Part shown: positions 1-30,528 of the stretch, one piece after another
Layout of the letters: each line of letters starts with the position of its first letter
Numbering within the stretch: the stretch's first letter is position 1
NCBI RefSeq assembly: GCF_003730195.1
Contig: NZ_QWGG01000002.1
Location: 124,001 to 188,000 of the forward strand
Reading direction: 5' to 3'
Length of the DNA: 64,000 bases
From: Halosimplex salinum
Lineage (GTDB): Archaea > Halobacteriota > Halobacteria > Halobacteriales > Haloarculaceae
Notes under the pieces: generated by a model
Seen by the model: only the letters and a program-made list of their open reading frames with translations
Database searches by the model: none
Told to the model about the DNA's origin: nothing
Position numbers and translations under genes: made by a program

Positions 1-1016
1 TCCGCCGACGGGTCTTCTACGCCGGGCGCGACGTCGACCCCTATCTCGGCGCCGCCGAGGCCGGCGAGACACACTCGATCGTCACCGGGATCGGACCCTC
101 CGGCCCGATGCACCTCGGGCACGTCCTCGTCTTCTACCTCGCGAAGCGACTGCAGGAGGCGACGGGCGCGTACGTCTACGTCCCGCTCTCGGACGACGAG
201 AAGTTCTACGCGAAGGACCTCTCCTTTTCGGAGATCGAGGCCGCGACCCGGAGCAACCTGCGGGACCTCCTCGCCGTCGGCTTCGACCCCGAGCGCACGC
301 GCATCGTCGTCGACCGCCTCGACGCCGACGCCCTCTACCCGCAGGCCGCGCGCGTCGCCGCGGACATCACGCAGTCCACCGTCGACGCGACCTACGGCGA
401 CCCCGACAACGTCGGTCTCTCCTTCTATCCGGCGATGCAGGCCACCCACCTGCTCCTCCCCCAGCTGGTCCACGGGCGCCACCCGACGCTGGTCCCCATC
501 GCCGTCGACCAGGACCCGCACGTCCGGGTCTGTCGCGACGTGGCCGCCAAGGAGCGATTTGCGGTGGACAAACCCGGCGCGCTCCTCGGGAAGTTCCTCC
601 CCGCCCTCGACGGACCGGGGAAGATGTCCTCCTCCTCGGACGCGCCTGCTATCGAGTTGACCGACGACCGCGACACCGTCCGGGAGAAGATCATGCAGTA
701 CGCCCACTCCGGGGGACGGGTCGATATCGAGGAACACCGCGAGCACGGCGGCGACCCCGCCGTGGACGTGGCCTACCAGTACCTGCACACGTTCTTCGAA
801 CCCGACGACGAGCGCGTCGAGGACCTCGCGGCGCAGTATCGCTCGGGCGAGTTGCTGACGGGCGAACTGAAGGAAGTCGCCGCCGAGCGGATCGGGGAGT
901 TCCTGGCCGAGCATCAGGAGCGTCGAGAGGCGCTCGGCGACCTGCGCGAGGAACTCGGCCCGTATCGGCTGACCGAGGAAGAGCGCGAGCGACTGCGGCC
1001 GTCGGTGTTCGACTGA
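1..1016 (+). CDS. trpS: Tryptophan--tRNA ligase (5' end missing)
   Basis: Class I aminoacyl-tRNA synthetase that charges tRNA-Trp in the cytoplasm. The gene enters from the left edge. The frame is open from base 3, so the N-terminal residues lie outside the window. The HIGH-type motif reads GPSGPMHLGH (around 93-122) and the KMSKS-type motif reads GKMSSSSD (around 618-641), both typical of archaeal TrpRS. An internal ATG at 108 lies inside the HIGH motif and cannot be the true start. The C-terminal part is acidic and charged, as expected in a halophile. The next gene is convergent, 27 bases away. Confidence 0.95.
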   Translation, partial: RRRVFYAGRDVDPYLGAAEAGETHSIVTGIGPSGPMHLGHVLVFYLAKRLQEATGAYVYVPLSDDEKFYAKDLSFSEIEAATRSNLRDLLAVGFDPERTRIVVDRLDADALYPQAARVAADITQSTVDATYGDPDNVGLSFYPAMQATHLLLPQLVHGRHPTLVPIAVDQDPHVRVCRDVAAKERFAVDKPGALLGKFLPALDGPGKMSSSSDAPAIELTDDRDTVREKIMQYAHSGGRVDIEEHREHGGDPAVDVAYQYLHTFFEPDDERVEDLAAQYRSGELLTGELKEVAAERIGEFLAEHQERREALGDLREELGPYRLTEEERERLRPSVFD

Positions 1017-23662: not shown

Positions 23663-24103
23663 ATGCAGACGGTCACGGTGTCGCGACGGCTGGACGCGTC
23701 GCCCGAGCGAGTCCGCGAAGCGATGGAGGACTTAGAGGAGTTCATGCTCGCCGCGGGCTTCACCGACGTGTCCGTCGACGGCGCCGACATGCACCTGGAG
23801 AACCAGGTCGGACTGGCGACGGTCACGCTCGACCTGCGCGTCGTCGACAGCGAGGCCGACCTCGCGTACGAACAGGCCGACGGCTTCTTCGAGGTGATGG
23901 ACACGGAGTACTGGGTCGAGGCGGTCGACGGCGGCTCAGAGATCACCGCGACGACCGACTTCGCACTCGACGTGGCGCTGGTGGGGCAGATTCTCGACGC
24001 GACCGTCATCAAGCGCCAGCGCCGCCACGAACTCGAACAGCAGTTCGACTGGCTGGCCGAGGAACTCGAGGCGGAGACGCCGTCGTCCGAGTCGTCACCC
24101 TGA
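23663..24103 (+). CDS. SRPBCC (START-like) family protein
   Basis: A 146-residue protein that fits the helix-grip SRPBCC pattern: MQTVTVSRRLDASPERVREAMEDL opens with the beta strand and helix of the fold, and the end carries a long amphipathic helix (VIKRQRRHELEQQFDWLAEEL). The family binds small hydrophobic ligands. The ATG at 23663 was chosen because it starts the first conserved strand. It is divergent from the DUF2249 gene and convergent with glmM. Confidence 0.82.
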   Translation: MQTVTVSRRLDASPERVREAMEDLEEFMLAAGFTDVSVDGADMHLENQVGLATVTLDLRVVDSEADLAYEQADGFFEVMDTEYWVEAVDGGSEITATTDFALDVALVGQILDATVIKRQRRHELEQQFDWLAEELEAETPSSESSP

Positions 24104-24154
24104 GCTGTTGACGGGCGGGTTCGACACGAAACGAAGGGGGTTCGGGACGGCGAG

Positions 24155-25531
24155 TCAGTCGACGCGGACGCCGGCGACGGCGTCGTACAGCTGGTCGGCG
24201 AGGTCCTCGGCGCGGTCGGCCGAGCGGGCCTCCGCGTAGATGCGGACGACGGGCTCAGTCCCGGAGGGGCGGGCGAGCACCCAGCCGTCGCCGTAGTCGA
24301 GGCGGTAGCCGTCGGTGGTGTCGAGGTCGGCGACGGAGTCGCGAGCGGCCCGCTCGATGGCGTCGAGCATGGCCTCGCGCTGGTGGTCCTCGTCGTACTC
24401 GACGTCGCGGCGGACGTTCACGTAATCGTCGTAGCGCGCGACGACGTCGCTGGCGGACCCGTCGCTCCGGGCGAGGAGTTCGCAGAACCGCGCGGCGGTG
24501 TAGGCGCCGTCGCGAGCGATCCGGAACCCCGGGAAGAGGATGCCACCGTTGCCCTCGCCGGCGACGGAGACCGACTCGCCGGTCGCCTGCAGGTCGCGGA
24601 TGCGCGAGACGATGTACGTGCTCCCGATGGGCGTCAGCGTGAGGTCCGCACCGGCGGCGGCGGCCACGTCGACCAGGCGCTGTGAGGCGTTGACCGCCGA
24701 GACGACGGTGTCGCCCTCGTCGATGGCGGCGGCCGTCAGCGCGGCCAGCGCGGCGTCGCCCTCGACGAACTCGCCGCGCTCGTCGACGAAGATGGCGCGG
24801 TCGGCGTCGCCGTCGTGCGCGACCCCGAGGTCGGCGTCGGTCGCGCGGACGAACCGCCGGAGGTCGCCGAGGTTGTCCGCGACCGGTTCGGGGTCGCGCC
24901 CGGGGAAGTGGCCGTCGGGCTGGGCGTGGATCGTCTTGACGTGACAGCCCAGTCGACGGAAGAAGTCGGGACTCGTGACGGAGCCCGCACCGTGACCCGG
25001 GTCGAGCGCGACGGTCAGGTCCGCGTCGGCGATCCCCTCGCGGTCGACGGCGGCCAGCAGGTCGTCGACGTAGGTCCGGCCGGCGCCGTCGACGCGGCGA
25101 CTGTCGCCGGTCTCGCCCCACGGGACGCGGTCGACCGACTCGTCGAGGAGGCGCGTCTCGATGGCTTCGAGGCGCTCGCGGGGGAGTTCCACCCCGTCGG
25201 CGCCGACGAGTTTGATCCCGTTGTACTCGGGCGGGTTGTGCGAGGCAGTCACCATGAGACCGGGGACGCTCTCGCGTTCGGCGTACGCCTGGAGGCCGGG
25301 TGTGGGGACGACGCCGAGGCGGTCGACGTCGATGCCGACGCTCGCGAGGCCGCTCGCGACGGCGTCGACGAGCATCTCGCCGGTCGCTCGCGTGTCTCGC
25401 GCGACGGCCGCGCGGTCGATCCCGTCGGCGGTCCAGACGGCTCCGGTGGCCTGGGCGACCGCCGTCGCGTCCTCCGGTGTGAGGTCGTCGTTGACCACGC
25501 CGCGTACGCCGCTGGACCCGAAGACCCTCAT
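24155..25531 (-). CDS. glmM: Phosphoglucosamine mutase
   Basis: A 458-residue alpha-D-phosphohexomutase that interconverts glucosamine-6-phosphate and glucosamine-1-phosphate for UDP-GlcNAc synthesis. All four active-site loops are visible: phosphoserine loop TASHNPP (Ser97), metal loop DGDADR, sugar loop GEGNGG and phosphate loop RPSGTEP. The GEGNGG sugar loop and the short N-terminus [11 protein letters not shown] match archaeal GlmM rather than phosphomannomutase, but activity on other hexose phosphates is possible. Confidence 0.93.
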
Positions 25532-25649
25532 TGTCGTCTACTCGGCGGTCAGGCCGCATAGTGGTTCCGGACACCCTCCGCGGCCACCGCACCCGGGGAC
25601 AGCGCCCGATATCGAACCGTCTAAACGCCGGGGTGTCGACAGCACGCGT

Positions 25650-26204
25650 ATGGACAAGCAGGGACTCATCGACGCGCTCCGGGCCGCCGACGCCGTGAAG
25701 TTCGGCGAGTTCGAGCTCTCCCACGGCGGCACCTCGAACTACTACGTCGACAAGTACGTCTTCGAGACCGACCCCCATTCCCTGGAACTCATCGCCGAGG
25801 CGTTCGCCGAGCGCGTCGGCGGCCAGCAGGGAGGCGACACGACACTCGCCGGCGTCGCGCTCGGCGCCGTTCCGCTCGTCGCCGTCACGAGCGTCGAATC
25901 CGGCAACCCCTACGTCATCGTCCGCAAGCAGAAGAAGGAGTACGGCACCGGGAACCTCGTCGAGGGGGAACTCACCGAGGGCGAGGAGGTCGTCGTCCTC
26001 GAGGACATCGCGACGACCGGCCAGAGCGCCGTCGACGCCGCCGAGGCCCTGCGCGAGGCGGGCGCCGTCGTCGACCGCGTGGTCGTCGTCGTCGACCGAC
26101 AGGAGGGCGCCGCCGAGAACCTCGCCGACCACGACCTCGAACTCCAGTCGCTGTTGACCGCCGACGACCTGCTCGCCGACGCGCCCGACGAGGTGGACGT
26201 CTGA
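25650..26204 (+). CDS. pyrE: Orotate phosphoribosyltransferase
   Basis: Catalyses orotate plus PRPP to OMP in pyrimidine synthesis. The 184-residue protein contains the PRPP-binding loop [19 protein letters not shown] and the [10 protein letters not shown] catalytic loop. ATG at 25650 was chosen because it begins the conserved N-terminal helix ([20 protein letters not shown]) and has a CTAAAC element about 30 bases upstream. The much longer open frame from 25161 is antisense to glmM. Divergent from glmM. Confidence 0.96.
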
Positions 26205-26310
26205 CCGGCGCGAGCGCGACTTCCGACGGGTCGAACCCGAGACCCGTATCGGCCGAGATCGGGCGTGGTAATGACTAACAAAGCCGTTCGACGGCCGTCG
26301 CACGTCACAA

Positions 26311-26458
26311 CTCTTATACCCGATTGCGCGTTAGCCGAGTGCAAGATGGCAGGTGTCTGTTTTACAGGCGGGCTCTCCGCCCTCTAATCAGTCACTGCCA
26401 CGTTCTCACGCTCGCAACCGGTTGACAAGCGACGCGTGGCGGTCAGGAGGCCGATGAT
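26311..26458 (+). promoter_or_regulatory. thrS promoter and ~115-base leader with Shine-Dalgarno
   Basis: A TATA-like TCTTATACC at 26311-26319 predicts a transcript start near 26342, about 115 bases before the thrS ATG. The leader holds a 13-codon ORF (26346-26387), a hairpin GGCGG-GCTCT-CCGCC near its end, and an unusually strong AGGAGG at 26445-26450, eight bases before the thrS ATG. Most other genes here look leaderless, so this mRNA is exceptional. A regulatory role is inferred. Confidence 0.5.
26346..26387 (+). CDS. Possible 13-residue leader peptide before thrS
   Basis: ATG to TAA in 14 codons encodes MAGVCFTGGLSAL. It starts only a few bases after the predicted transcript start, so it could be translated from a near-leaderless 5' end. 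The last codons form one arm of a short GC-rich hairpin. It has a single Thr codon, so classic attenuation by a Thr codon run is not supported. Confidence 0.3.
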   Translation: MAGVCFTGGLSAL

Positions 26459-28450
26459 ATGTCACGACAGGAATCCTCAGTCACGGTGGAACTGCCCGAT
26501 GGAAACACGCTCGACGTTCCGTCGGGCACCACAGTCGAGGGTGTGGCCTACGAGATCGGTCCCGGCCTCGGCGACGACACCGTCGCGGGGAAACTCGACG
26601 GCGAACTCGTCTCGAAGGCCGACCCCGTCTACGACGGCGCGACCATCGAGATCGTCACGCCCTCGGCCGACGAGTACCTGCAGGTGATGCGCCACTCCGC
26701 GGCCCACGTCCTCGCGCAGGCCGTCCTGCGGCGCTACCCCGACGCCAAACTCGCCACCGGCCCGCCCACCGAGGAGGGGTTCTACTACGACTTCGACGGC
26801 GTCGACGTCGACGAGGACGAACTCGACGACCTGGTCGCCGAGATGGAGTCGATACTCGAGGACGACCTCGCGATCGAACGCGAGGAGGTCTCGATCGAGG
26901 AGGCCCGCGAGCGCGTCGCGGGCGACCCGTACAAGGAGGAGATCCTCGAGGACCTCGCCAGCGGCGAGCGCGGCGCGGACGAGGACATCGAGACGGTCTC
27001 CTTCTACAGTCAGGGGGAGTTCTCGGACCTCTGTGCCGGCCCCCACGTCGCCTCGACCGGACAGATCGGCGCGGTCGACCTCCGTGAGATCGCCGCCACC
27101 AACTGGCGCGGCGACGAGGACGAGGCGCCCCTCACCCGCGTCTACGGCACCGCGTTCGAGTCCGAGTCCGATCTGGAGGAGTACTGGGAGCGCAAGGAGG
27201 AGGCCGAACGCCGCGACCACCGCCGCATCGGTCGCGAGATGGATCTCTTCTCCATCCCCGACCACTCTCCGGGCTGTGTCCACTTCCACCCGGACGGGAT
27301 GGCCATCCGCCGGGAACTGGAGGAGTACATCCGCGAGAAGAACGACGAACTCGGCTACGAGGAGGTGTGGACGCCCGAACTCAACAAGACGGACCTGTGG
27401 AAGACCTCGGGCCACTACGAGCACTTCTGCGAGGAGGACGAGATGTTCCACTGGGAGCAGGCCAGCGCCCGCACGGAGAGCGACGAGGGCGACGAGTACG
27501 GCCTGAAGCCGATGAACTGCGCCAACCACGTCCACCTCTACCAGCGCGAACGGCGCTCCTATCGGGAGCTGCCGAAGCGCTACTCGGAGTTCGGCACCTG
27601 CTACCGCAACGAGCGCTCGGGCGAGCTCTCGGGCATGCTCCGCGTGCGCGGCTTCACGCAGGACGACGGCCACGCGTTCGTCCGCCGCGACCAGATCCAG
27701 AGCGAGGTCACCCGCACCCTCGAGGTCATCGACGAGGTGCTCGACGACTTCGGGCTCGACGTGACCTTCAAGCTGGAGACCCAGCCCGACGACTCCTTCG
27801 GCGACGACGCCCTCTGGGAGCGCGCCGAGGAGGACCTCCGTAGCTCGCTCGACGCGCTCGGCGAGGGGTACGAGGTCGAGGCCGGCGAGGGCGCCTTCTA
27901 CGGCCCGAAGATCGCCGCGGACGCCGAGGACGCCATCGGTCGCGAGTGGACCGTCGGCACGGTCCAGCTGGACTTCGTCCAGCCAGAGCGGTTCGACCTG
28001 AACTACGTCGGCGAGGACAACGACGAGCACACGCCGGTGATGATCCACCGCGCCCTCCTCGGAACGTTCGAGCGGTTCATGGGCGTCATGATCGAGCACT
28101 TTGCGGGTCGGTTCCCGCTGTGGCTCGCGCCCGAACAGGTGCGCGTGCTCCCGCTCAACGAGGAGGTGCTGGGCTACGCGCACCGCCTCAAGAACGACTT
28201 CCACGCGGACGGCTTCCGCGCCTCCGTCGCCGACGGCGACGACACGCTCCAGCGGAAGATCCGCCGCGCCCACGACGAGAACGTCCCGTACATGCTGATC
28301 GTCGGTCCCGACGAGGAAGCGGCCGGGACCGTCTCGGTCCGCGACCGGGCCGAACGCGAGGGGCGCGACGTGGACCCCGACGAGTTCCGCGAGCACCTCC
28401 GGGCCGAGCGCGAAGAGAAGCGCCTCGACCCCGACTTCCTCGACGAGTAA
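26459..28450 (+). CDS. thrS: Threonine--tRNA ligase
   Basis: Class II synthetase that charges tRNA-Thr. The 663 residues have the full domain order: N-terminal TGS domain (about 8-68), the bacterial-type editing domain with HSAAHVLAQAV (HxxxH) from about 78, the catalytic core with the zinc-site Cys in MNCANHVHLY and motif 2 FGTCYRNERSGELSG, and the C-terminal anticodon-binding domain (from about residue 560). Many archaea have ThrRS with a different editing domain; the bacterial-type domain here suggests ancient transfer, as in other haloarchaea. The start is fixed by AGGAGG eight bases upstream; another ATG at 26454 is out of frame. Confidence 0.97.
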   Translation: MSRQESSVTVELPDGNTLDVPSGTTVEGVAYEIGPGLGDDTVAGKLDGELVSKADPVYDGATIEIVTPSADEYLQVMRHSAAHVLAQAVLRRYPDAKLATGPPTEEGFYYDFDGVDVDEDELDDLVAEMESILEDDLAIEREEVSIEEARERVAGDPYKEEILEDLASGERGADEDIETVSFYSQGEFSDLCAGPHVASTGQIGAVDLREIAATNWRGDEDEAPLTRVYGTAFESESDLEEYWERKEEAERRDHRRIGREMDLFSIPDHSPGCVHFHPDGMAIRRELEEYIREKNDELGYEEVWTPELNKTDLWKTSGHYEHFCEEDEMFHWEQASARTESDEGDEYGLKPMNCANHVHLYQRERRSYRELPKRYSEFGTCYRNERSGELSGMLRVRGFTQDDGHAFVRRDQIQSEVTRTLEVIDEVLDDFGLDVTFKLETQPDDSFGDDALWERAEEDLRSSLDALGEGYEVEAGEGAFYGPKIAADAEDAIGREWTVGTVQLDFVQPERFDLNYVGEDNDEHTPVMIHRALLGTFERFMGVMIEHFAGRFPLWLAPEQVRVLPLNEEVLGYAHRLKNDFHADGFRASVADGDDTLQRKIRRAHDENVPYMLIVGPDEEAAGTVSVRDRAEREGRDVDPDEFREHLRAEREEKRLDPDFLDE

Positions 28451-28519
28451 CGTCGTCGCGACGGGCCGCACCGGTAGCGTTTTTTCGGCGGCAGTCGCAC
28501 TGTCCCGATAGTTCCCCGC

Positions 28520-29800
28520 ATGAACCCCCGCACGCGAGCGCTGGGGGTCGTCGCGGTCGCCCTCCTCTGCCTGACGGCCGCCGTCGGCGCCCTGGCGCTG
28601 TCGGTCCCCGACGCCACCGGCAGTCCCGGACAGCAGCGCCACCCGACCGACACCGGCCTGCAGAACCTCCACGACGCCGGGATCACCGGCGAGAACGTCA
28701 CCGTCGGCGTCGTCGGCGTCACCGGTTTCGACACCGACCACCCGGCCCTCGCGGGGCGGGTCGCCGCGGCGCGCGCCTTCGGCGACGGGACGGTGACGAA
28801 CGGCGGCCGGAACCGTCACGGGACGGCGACGGCGGCCGTCCTCGCGCGGACCGCGCCCGACGCCGACCTGTACCTCGCGACCTTCGACGGGACGACCGAC
28901 TTCCGTCGCGCGGTGACGTGGCTCGTCACCGCCGACGTGGACGTGGTCGTGACGCCGGTGTCGTTCTACGGGACGCTCGGCGACGGGAGCGCCGCCGTCG
29001 AGCGACTGGGCGACTGGGCGCGCCGGCAGGGGACCGTCTTCGTCGCGCCGACCGGCAACCTCGCCCGCGGGCACTGGCGCGGCCGCTACGACGACGTCCG
29101 CGACGGGCGCGTCCGCTTCGACGACACGACGCGCAACTACGTCGCCGGCCGGGGGAGTCAGACGGAGATCTGGCTCGCCTGGGACCGCGCGCACGCGAAC
29201 GAGAGTTACAGCGTCGAGCTCTACCGGGCGGCGGGGAACGAGTCGCGACTGGTCGCCCGCTCGCAGCCCTACGAGGACGACGACGTGCCCAACGCCCGGA
29301 TCAACGCCCAACTCGAAGGCGGGACCTACTACGTCGCGGTCAGCGGACCGGCGAACGCGACCGGCGCGCGGCTCCGACTCACGTCGCCGACCCACCGCTT
29401 CCAGCAGGCGCTCCCCGCCGGGAGCGTGGCCGCACCGGCGACCGGCGAGGGCGTCGTCGGCGTCGGCGCGTACGACCCCGTCGCCGAGCGGGTCGAACCG
29501 TTCAGCTCCCGCGGGCCCACCGTCGACGGCCGCCTCGGCGTCGACGTGGTCGCGCCCGCTCGACACGAAATCAGGGGGTACGACGACCCCCTCGTCGGCT
29601 CGTCGGCGGCGACGCCCTACGTCGGCGGCCTCGCCGCGCTCCTCCTCGACGCCCGGCCGGACGCGACGCCGACACAGGTCGAACACCGCCTCGAACGGAC
29701 GGCCGTCGACGTCGGCCCGAACGGCACCGACACCGTCGCCGGTCACGGCCTCGTCGTCCCCGGTCGCGCGGTCGACCTCACCTCGAACGCAACCGGGTGA
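28520..29800 (+). CDS. Subtilase-family (S8) exported protein, altered Asp site
   Basis: A 426-residue exported protein with a signal sequence (residues 7-28). The subtilase pattern is clear: His100 in NRHGTATA, oxyanion Asn180 in APTGN, and Ser362 in GSSAATPYVGG. The catalytic Asp segment should read close to D-[TV]-TG or DTG, but here it is VVGVTGFD, with Gly66 at the expected Asp. Between Asn180 and Ser362 there is an inserted beta domain (about 200-295), perhaps a P/PPC-like module. It may be inactive, or Asp71 may compensate. Its 70-base gap after thrS suggests separate transcription. Confidence 0.8.
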   Translation: MNPRTRALGVVAVALLCLTAAVGALALSVPDATGSPGQQRHPTDTGLQNLHDAGITGENVTVGVVGVTGFDTDHPALAGRVAAARAFGDGTVTNGGRNRHGTATAAVLARTAPDADLYLATFDGTTDFRRAVTWLVTADVDVVVTPVSFYGTLGDGSAAVERLGDWARRQGTVFVAPTGNLARGHWRGRYDDVRDGRVRFDDTTRNYVAGRGSQTEIWLAWDRAHANESYSVELYRAAGNESRLVARSQPYEDDDVPNARINAQLEGGTYYVAVSGPANATGARLRLTSPTHRFQQALPAGSVAAPATGEGVVGVGAYDPVAERVEPFSSRGPTVDGRLGVDVVAPARHEIRGYDDPLVGSSAATPYVGGLAALLLDARPDATPTQVEHRLERTAVDVGPNGTDTVAGHGLVVPGRAVDLTSNATG

Positions 29801-29919
29801 CGGGGCTGGTCCGTATCCATCCGCTACGGTCGCCGATCGACTGGGCGGCCGCCGCTTAAATCGCGCTTTGAGCTACGGATAGGGCTATATGACTGCCGTC
29901 TGGATCGATTCCAAGAACC

Positions 29920-30528
29920 ATGTCCGGACTCATCGGCCGCATCCAGGACCGGTCGGCCACGAGCGACGAAGCGTTGCGAGTCCTCGACGTCGAGGGCGAG
30001 GAGACCGACGACGTCCTCGACGCGCTCGCGACGGACACGCGGCGGGCGGTCTACCGGTCGCTGTTCGAGGAGCCTCGCACCGCCTCGGAGATCGCAGAGC
30101 GGATCGACAGCTCCGTCCAGAACGTCCACTACCACCTCTCGAACCTCGAATCGGCCGGCCTCGTCGAGGAGATCGACACCCGCTACTCGGAGAAGGGCAA
30201 CGAGATGACCGTCTACGGCCCGGCGAGCGACCCGCTCGTCATCGTCGGGAACAGCGAGATGCGACCGCGCGTCCACCGGACGCTGACCGACGTGGTCGGC
30301 GGCATCGGCCTGCTCTCGGTCGCGGCCGTGTTCGTCCAGTGGGGCGCCGAACGGATCGCCCGACCGGCGGTCGGCGGGAACGGTGCCGGCCCGGCCAGCC
30401 CGAACGCGACGCTGGGCGAGCCCGGCTCGCTCGGCTGGCTCGTCTTCGACGTGATCGAACCCGGCGTCCTCTTCTTCTTCGCCTGTCTCGCCCTCGCCGC
30501 CGTCGTGGCGCTCGCGCTCGACCGGTGA
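29920..30528 (+). CDS. ArsR-like winged-helix regulator with C-terminal membrane helices
   Basis: A 202-residue protein. Residues about 30-95 form an ArsR-type winged helix (LATDTRRAVYRSLFEEPRTASEIAERIDSSVQNVHYHLSNLESAGLVEE). Two hydrophobic segments follow (about 125-142 and 170-198), so the DNA-binding domain is tied to the membrane. This is common among haloarchaeal wHTH proteins; signals and targets are unknown. A GCTATATGA element near 29883 supports a start at or near the ATG. Confidence 0.87.
   Translation: MSGLIGRIQDRSATSDEALRVLDVEGEETDDVLDALATDTRRAVYRSLFEEPRTASEIAERIDSSVQNVHYHLSNLESAGLVEEIDTRYSEKGNEMTVYGPASDPLVIVGNSEMRPRVHRTLTDVVGGIGLLSVAAVFVQWGAERIARPAVGGNGAGPASPNATLGEPGSLGWLVFDVIEPGVLFFFACLALAAVVALALDR

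Follow-up and report, generated by a model that had tools for sequence, protein, structure and literature searches.

A conserved threonine-codon leader peptide frame upstream of thrS in haloarchaea and its proposed role in sensing threonyl-tRNA supply

The thrS locus and its leader

The window, a 64,000-nucleotide stretch of the Halosimplex salinum genome, encodes a 663 amino acid bacterial-type threonyl-tRNA synthetase (ThrRS), thrS (26459-28450; the gene and all parts of its leader lie on the + strand), whose mRNA is predicted to carry a leader of ~115 nt. What does such a leader do in front of a synthetase gene? The thrS product scores 611.9 bits against TIGR00418, contains TGS, SAD, class II core, and anticodon-binding domains, and is 94% identical to its closest named relative, from Halosimplex aquaticum. 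An earlier note made from the sequence had described a leadered gene with a 13-codon small ORF near the predicted 5' end, a GC hairpin, and a strong Shine-Dalgarno sequence, and had read the whole as regulatory. The parts of such a leader are indeed all present: a TATA-like TTATA (26314-26318), from which the start site is predicted; the small upstream ORF (uORF), encoding the putative leader peptide MAGVCFTGGLSAL (26346-26387, with ATG at 26346-26348 and the stop TAA at 26385-26387); AGGAGG (26445-26450); and the thrS ATG at 26459, 8 nt beyond the Shine-Dalgarno sequence. Overlooked at that stage were a rare threonine codon (ACA, uORF codon 7, 26364-26366), which we propose to be the sensor, a helix flanking it, and the recurrence of the same design at other synthetase genes. 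The genome also encodes an archaeal-type ThrRS (L293, G000:C11:557835), which has no thrS-type leader.

Distribution of the leader

Comparison of ThrRS homologues in public genomes found the same small frame 5' of thrS in Halosimplex, Haladaptatus, Halovenus, Halomicrococcus, Haloferax larsenii, H. elongans, and H. mucosum, and Nanohaloarchaea. By this comparison the predicted frame, whose lack of conservation had been named in the earlier note as grounds for abandoning its reading, is conserved across many haloarchaeal families and Nanohaloarchaea. A covariance model built from 27 leaders matched 124 of 391 Halobacteria genomes, with one match per genome, leaving 267 without a match; in the genus of H. 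mucosum, three of 15 genomes have the leader. The sole match outside the order in a sample of the phylum was borderline (E=0.004). Ninety-five of the 96 model matches that were fetched precede a bacterial-type thrS and the remaining one precedes an archaeal-type ThrRS. The leader stands before a full-length archaeal-type ThrRS gene (PF08915, NF003068) in one genome (L202/L288, G041:C1, ~741300, minus strand), the bacterial-type thrS of which (L047) has no leader. On a midpoint-rooted ThrRS tree, the leader requires eight changes, at least five of them on strong branches, and is present on deep lineages. This pattern is compatible with an old leader that has repeatedly been lost, and with the midpoint root some gains by transfer may also have occurred. 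Many thrS genes that have no leader instead have a TATA-like box directly before thrS.

Reading frame and promoter

The frame was examined using the conserved core GGTGNN[CTA][AG][CT]TTTAC[ACT] as an anchor, which does not require an ATG. At every one of the 115 anchors an ATG lies in the frame of the threonine codon, compared with five and none for the two alternative frames, and every one also reaches an in-frame stop within 16 codons, compared with none and 27. Loci found with the covariance model were preselected, as the model contains an ATG, but those found by protein similarity are free of that bias and gave the same result. Additions at the N-terminus come as whole codons (MTV.., MSLLV.., MHTTQ.., MSNTML..) among the 118 distinct leaders tabulated, a tabulation that itself required an in-frame ATG.

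In 99 of 117 leaders, the hexamer richest in A/T begins 32 or 33 nt upstream of the uORF ATG, and no comparable peak lies upstream of the thrS ATG in these 117, including at the ~30 nt expected had transcription started right before thrS, the alternative that the earlier note had set against its own reading. With a promoter element 27-32 nt before the uORF ATG and none before thrS, the uORF is expected to have little or no leader of its own, being transcribed from a single predicted promoter just before it that would start the transcript a few bases 5' of the uORF ATG. As in leader-peptide attenuators, a short conserved frame thus lies between the predicted promoter and the synthetase gene.

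The threonine codon

Most leaders have threonine at codon 7, and those with N-terminal additions have it at codon 8, 10, or 11. The codon is ACA at 113 of the 115 anchors, comprising all the haloarchaeal ones, and ACT and ACC at the two nanohaloarchaeal anchors. Both this codon and the TTT that precedes it are rare in the window, where ACA makes up 2.3% of threonine codons and TTT 4.4% of phenylalanine codons. Two Halovenus leaders have lost TTT and retained ACA (MAGIQLT and MAEVSVT). The peptide is variable outside its conserved positions, which, with the threonine codon kept, favours decoding over peptide-specific arrest. Sensing of tRNA supply through the cognate codon is a well-supported reading of these comparisons: as in leader-peptide attenuators, a cognate codon occupies a conserved position in the putative peptide, codon 7 for threonine, with parallels for valine, isoleucine, and tryptophan.

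RNA structure

uORF codons 1-5 pair with the bases just past the stop to form a helix, P1, the arms of which lie at 26348-26359 (5' arm, inside the uORF) and 26389-26399 (3' arm). P1 covaries, with a score of 0.305 across 27 leaders against 0.175 for shuffled sequences and at most 0.085 when slid; the column pair 17-57 occurs as AU 11 times, UA ten times, GU twice, and GC once in this set. In the Halovenus leader encoding MAEVSVT, both arms have changed together (GGCAGAA/UUCUGCC). Of 69 non-redundant leaders, 55 form P1 better than their dinucleotide shuffles do (p<0.05). In the window leader, a single U-U mismatch holds the value at p=0.11. A control in which arms were swapped between leaders was weaker, a median of 25% of other leaders pairing equally well, as expected given the conservation of the sequence. 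An insert of ~80 nt near the end of the uORF distinguishes L190 from its close relative L123, and the P1 3'-arm sequence is kept past the insert. Five nanohaloarchaeal leaders (L045, L062, L071, L076, and L077) have a second hairpin with a UUUAAC loop 3' of the uORF.

The GC hairpin of the earlier note, placed there after the small ORF, lies within it, between the threonine codon and the stop (P2, 26367-26371 with 26377-26381). This predicted inner hairpin is weak across leaders (six of 57 at p<0.05), and the fold of the whole leader is not unusually stable in the window species (z = -0.59). The strong Shine-Dalgarno sequence is real and well spaced in the window, but a similar motif precedes thrS in just 19 of the 69 non-redundant leaders, so sequestration of the Shine-Dalgarno cannot be the general output. 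Neither the hairpin nor the Shine-Dalgarno finds support as the core of the mechanism. When a stalled or terminating ribosome was modelled, the predicted accessibility of the start changed without consistency, rising in 19 and falling in 38 of 118 leaders. None of 69 leaders showed a signal for the thrS start pairing with the 5' arm in the uORF, and no U-run was seen in the window leader. Modelled stalling did raise the mean unpaired probability of the 3'-arm region from 0.50 to 0.61 across the 118 leaders. In 21 of 67 leaders, the freed 3' side of P1 can pair further downstream better than chance would predict; an example in the window, read by eye and tentative, is helix B (26395-26402 with 26435-26442), which would be an alternative partner for the end of the P1 3' arm.

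Proposed mechanism

A ribosome translating the uORF probably senses the supply of threonyl-tRNA and thereby sets thrS expression (we hold this with good, though not full, confidence). The thrS mRNA would begin a few bases 5' of a leader-peptide frame with one rare threonine codon, and ribosomes loading on this nearly leaderless uORF would meet it as codon 7 and there gauge the supply of threonyl-tRNA. Under a shortage of charged tRNA-Thr, the ribosome would wait at this codon; with ACA in the A site, its footprint, estimated from typical footprints, would span ~26346-26376 and so cover the entire P1 5' arm, freeing the 3' arm. When charged tRNA-Thr is plentiful, the ribosome would end at the stop, where its footprint would take in most of the 3' arm of P1, and then leave, allowing P1 to form. 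This difference would set thrS expression, presumably higher when threonyl-tRNA is short. Both uORF translation and stalling are inferred from the conserved features, and the last step may act via thrS translation, mRNA stability, or early termination of transcription.

What comparison between genomes establishes are the uORF, its frame and stop, its threonine codon, the position of the predicted promoter, P1, and the link to ThrRS function. We regard the sensing uORF as the best explanation because frame and stop are conserved, the threonine codon is kept both through synonymous change and despite change in its neighbour, the promoter position and P1 covariation fit, the leader tracks ThrRS genes, a different uORF with tandem ACA ACA precedes another archaeal-type thrS, and cognate uORFs stand before TrpRS, IleRS, and ValRS. 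Counted against it are the lack of a consistent start-site switch and of pairing between the 5' arm and the thrS start, the single threonine codon, a Shine-Dalgarno sequence that is not general, and the many haloarchaea that lack the leader.

Other synthetase genes with cognate uORFs

A composition-blind scan for conserved short ORFs was run upstream of a subset of the other synthetase genes. In Halosimplex, TrpRS (..SALxWRWR..), ValRS (..SVAVTVRVGAP), and a second copy of IleRS (MTRHVVPAATIIIAPSGA and relatives) each proved to have a conserved uORF, with a TATA-like sequence immediately 5' of it; the identities of the downstream genes were confirmed. The window's genome encodes two TrpRS and two IleRS, one of each having a uORF. 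The same scan gave no conserved uORF for TyrRS, for the second TrpRS, or for the main IleRS, and a match before a LeuRS-like group was set aside because it is likely to be coding sequence read out of frame.

The trpS gene whose 3' part occupies window positions 1-1013 has its uORF ~365 nt before window position 1 (L217, 1068-1151). This uORF is conserved (also in L218, L219, and L227) and contains two tryptophan codons (WRW) between the helix arms GUCCGCUCUC and GAGAGCGGAC. The uORF of the second IleRS, encoding MTRHVVPAATIIIAPSGA (L236, 1099-1155; also L237-L241 and L250), has two or three isoleucine codons, an inner hairpin, and a downstream arm past the stop. It is limited to the second IleRS copy and was found solely in Halosimplex: a model of this leader (R2) searched across the class returned its own genome and one weak match without sign of an adjacent IleRS, and the main IleRS genes have no such uORF apart from one distant chance match.

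The valine case is broader. A uORF with at least two GTA codons lies ~70-290 nt 5' of ValRS at 24 of 30 haloarchaeal loci (L340-L369), from two ValRS types, and by this count the predicted Val uORF is general among haloarchaea. Tandem GTA occurs at 12 of these 30 loci and at none of 202 other synthetase loci; at least two GTA codons are found in 13 of 118 thrS leaders and in three of 84 loci in the other four control groups. GTA makes up 1.2% of the valine codons in the window. An unrelated uORF, MSVLF[G/R]TTRGLASF, with tandem ACA ACA (L299, 1389-1433; L300, 1388-1432) and a TATA-like sequence ~30 nt upstream, precedes two of the 17 archaeal-type ThrRS genes compared, both from a single genus.

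Comparison with known systems and alternative explanations

Reading of cognate leader-peptide codons by a ribosome is a textbook mechanism for controlling synthetase genes in bacteria, with attenuators of this kind at pheST in E. coli and at the auxiliary TrpRS gene of Streptomyces. The haloarchaeal leader resembles these in placing a short cognate-codon peptide right 5' of a synthetase gene and in flanking those codons with RNA helices. It differs in being archaeal, in having a nearly leaderless uORF with a single rare threonine codon instead of a run, and in showing neither a terminator (the window leader having no U-run) nor consistent Shine-Dalgarno sequestration.

Firmicutes and Actinobacteria control thrS genes with T-box riboswitches, where, as here, a cognate triplet sits in a structured synthetase leader, in the present case too presumably sensing tRNA charging. 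A T-box-like RNA, in which the ACA, ACC, or ACU in the P1 loop acts as a specifier that pairs with the anticodon of uncharged tRNA-Thr without any translation, would account for a triplet that is unpaired in a conserved loop and varies synonymously, as T-box specifiers do. We nevertheless consider it quite improbable. The triplet is a codon within a conserved open frame, with an in-frame ATG and a near stop in every case and N-terminal additions in whole codons, and the Val, Ile, and Trp leaders have a uORF but not the thrS-leader RNA. An Rfam scan of window positions 24000-30000 returned no T-box match up to E=1, its only matches being sub-threshold and irrelevant, in agreement with the earlier note, which had set T-boxes aside; no conserved UGGN element was noticed in the leaders, by eye only. 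The E. coli thrS leader is likewise structured and contains a translational operator bound by ThrRS. Binding and repression of the haloarchaeal leader by its own product would suit a conserved structure found only before ThrRS genes, yet the conserved loop (YRYUUUACA) has no conserved NGU anticodon-like triplet, no E. coli-type anticodon-arm mimic was found, and the leader precedes both bacterial-type and archaeal-type ThrRS. Such autorepression, which would also leave the conservation of frame and stop unexplained, is very unlikely.

Two further explanations keep the uORF and dispense with decoding of charged tRNA. The conservation of G3, F6, and T7 in most leaders could mean that free threonine acts through the nascent peptide, which would itself halt the ribosome, but the other residues vary widely (MAGVCFT, MKGGRPT, MAEVSVT, MSVLFGTT), just ~six residues precede the threonine codon, and the third bases of the unpaired TTT and ACA codons are conserved although a peptide effect would not need them; we give this little credence. 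A rare-codon uORF at the start of the transcript would compete for ribosomes regardless of which codons it used, and might simply lower thrS translation by a fixed amount. This simpler account predicts neither the invariant threonine codon nor the match of codon to synthetase for Thr, Val, Ile, and Trp, and we judge it improbable.

A 2016 study of Haloferax volcanii start sites found translational control by structured leaders to be untypical of haloarchaea (PMC4983044), and a Methanosarcina mazei Ribo-seq paper mentions uORFs in general terms only (PMC11456600). Searches of open-licence literature turned up no earlier account of leader-peptide control in Archaea, or of the thrS leader, an absence that argues only weakly for novelty.

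Implications

Taken with the other synthetase genes, the sensing uORF at thrS likely belongs to a general haloarchaeal system in which nearly leaderless uORFs with cognate, often rare codons (ACA for Thr and GTA for Val, with Ile and Trp codons as well) adjust synthetase genes to the charging of tRNA. This would make it the first such leader-peptide control described in Archaea, with an output step unlike bacterial terminators or Shine-Dalgarno sequestration. This logic recurs at four or more synthetase genes, on near-leaderless uORFs, and as it occurs in culturable genera (among them Haladaptatus, Halovenus, Halosimplex, and Haloferax, in H. mucosum), it is directly testable. It also prompts a further question: by what means could a ribosome at the very 5' end of an archaeal mRNA signal to a start codon ~70-270 nt downstream?
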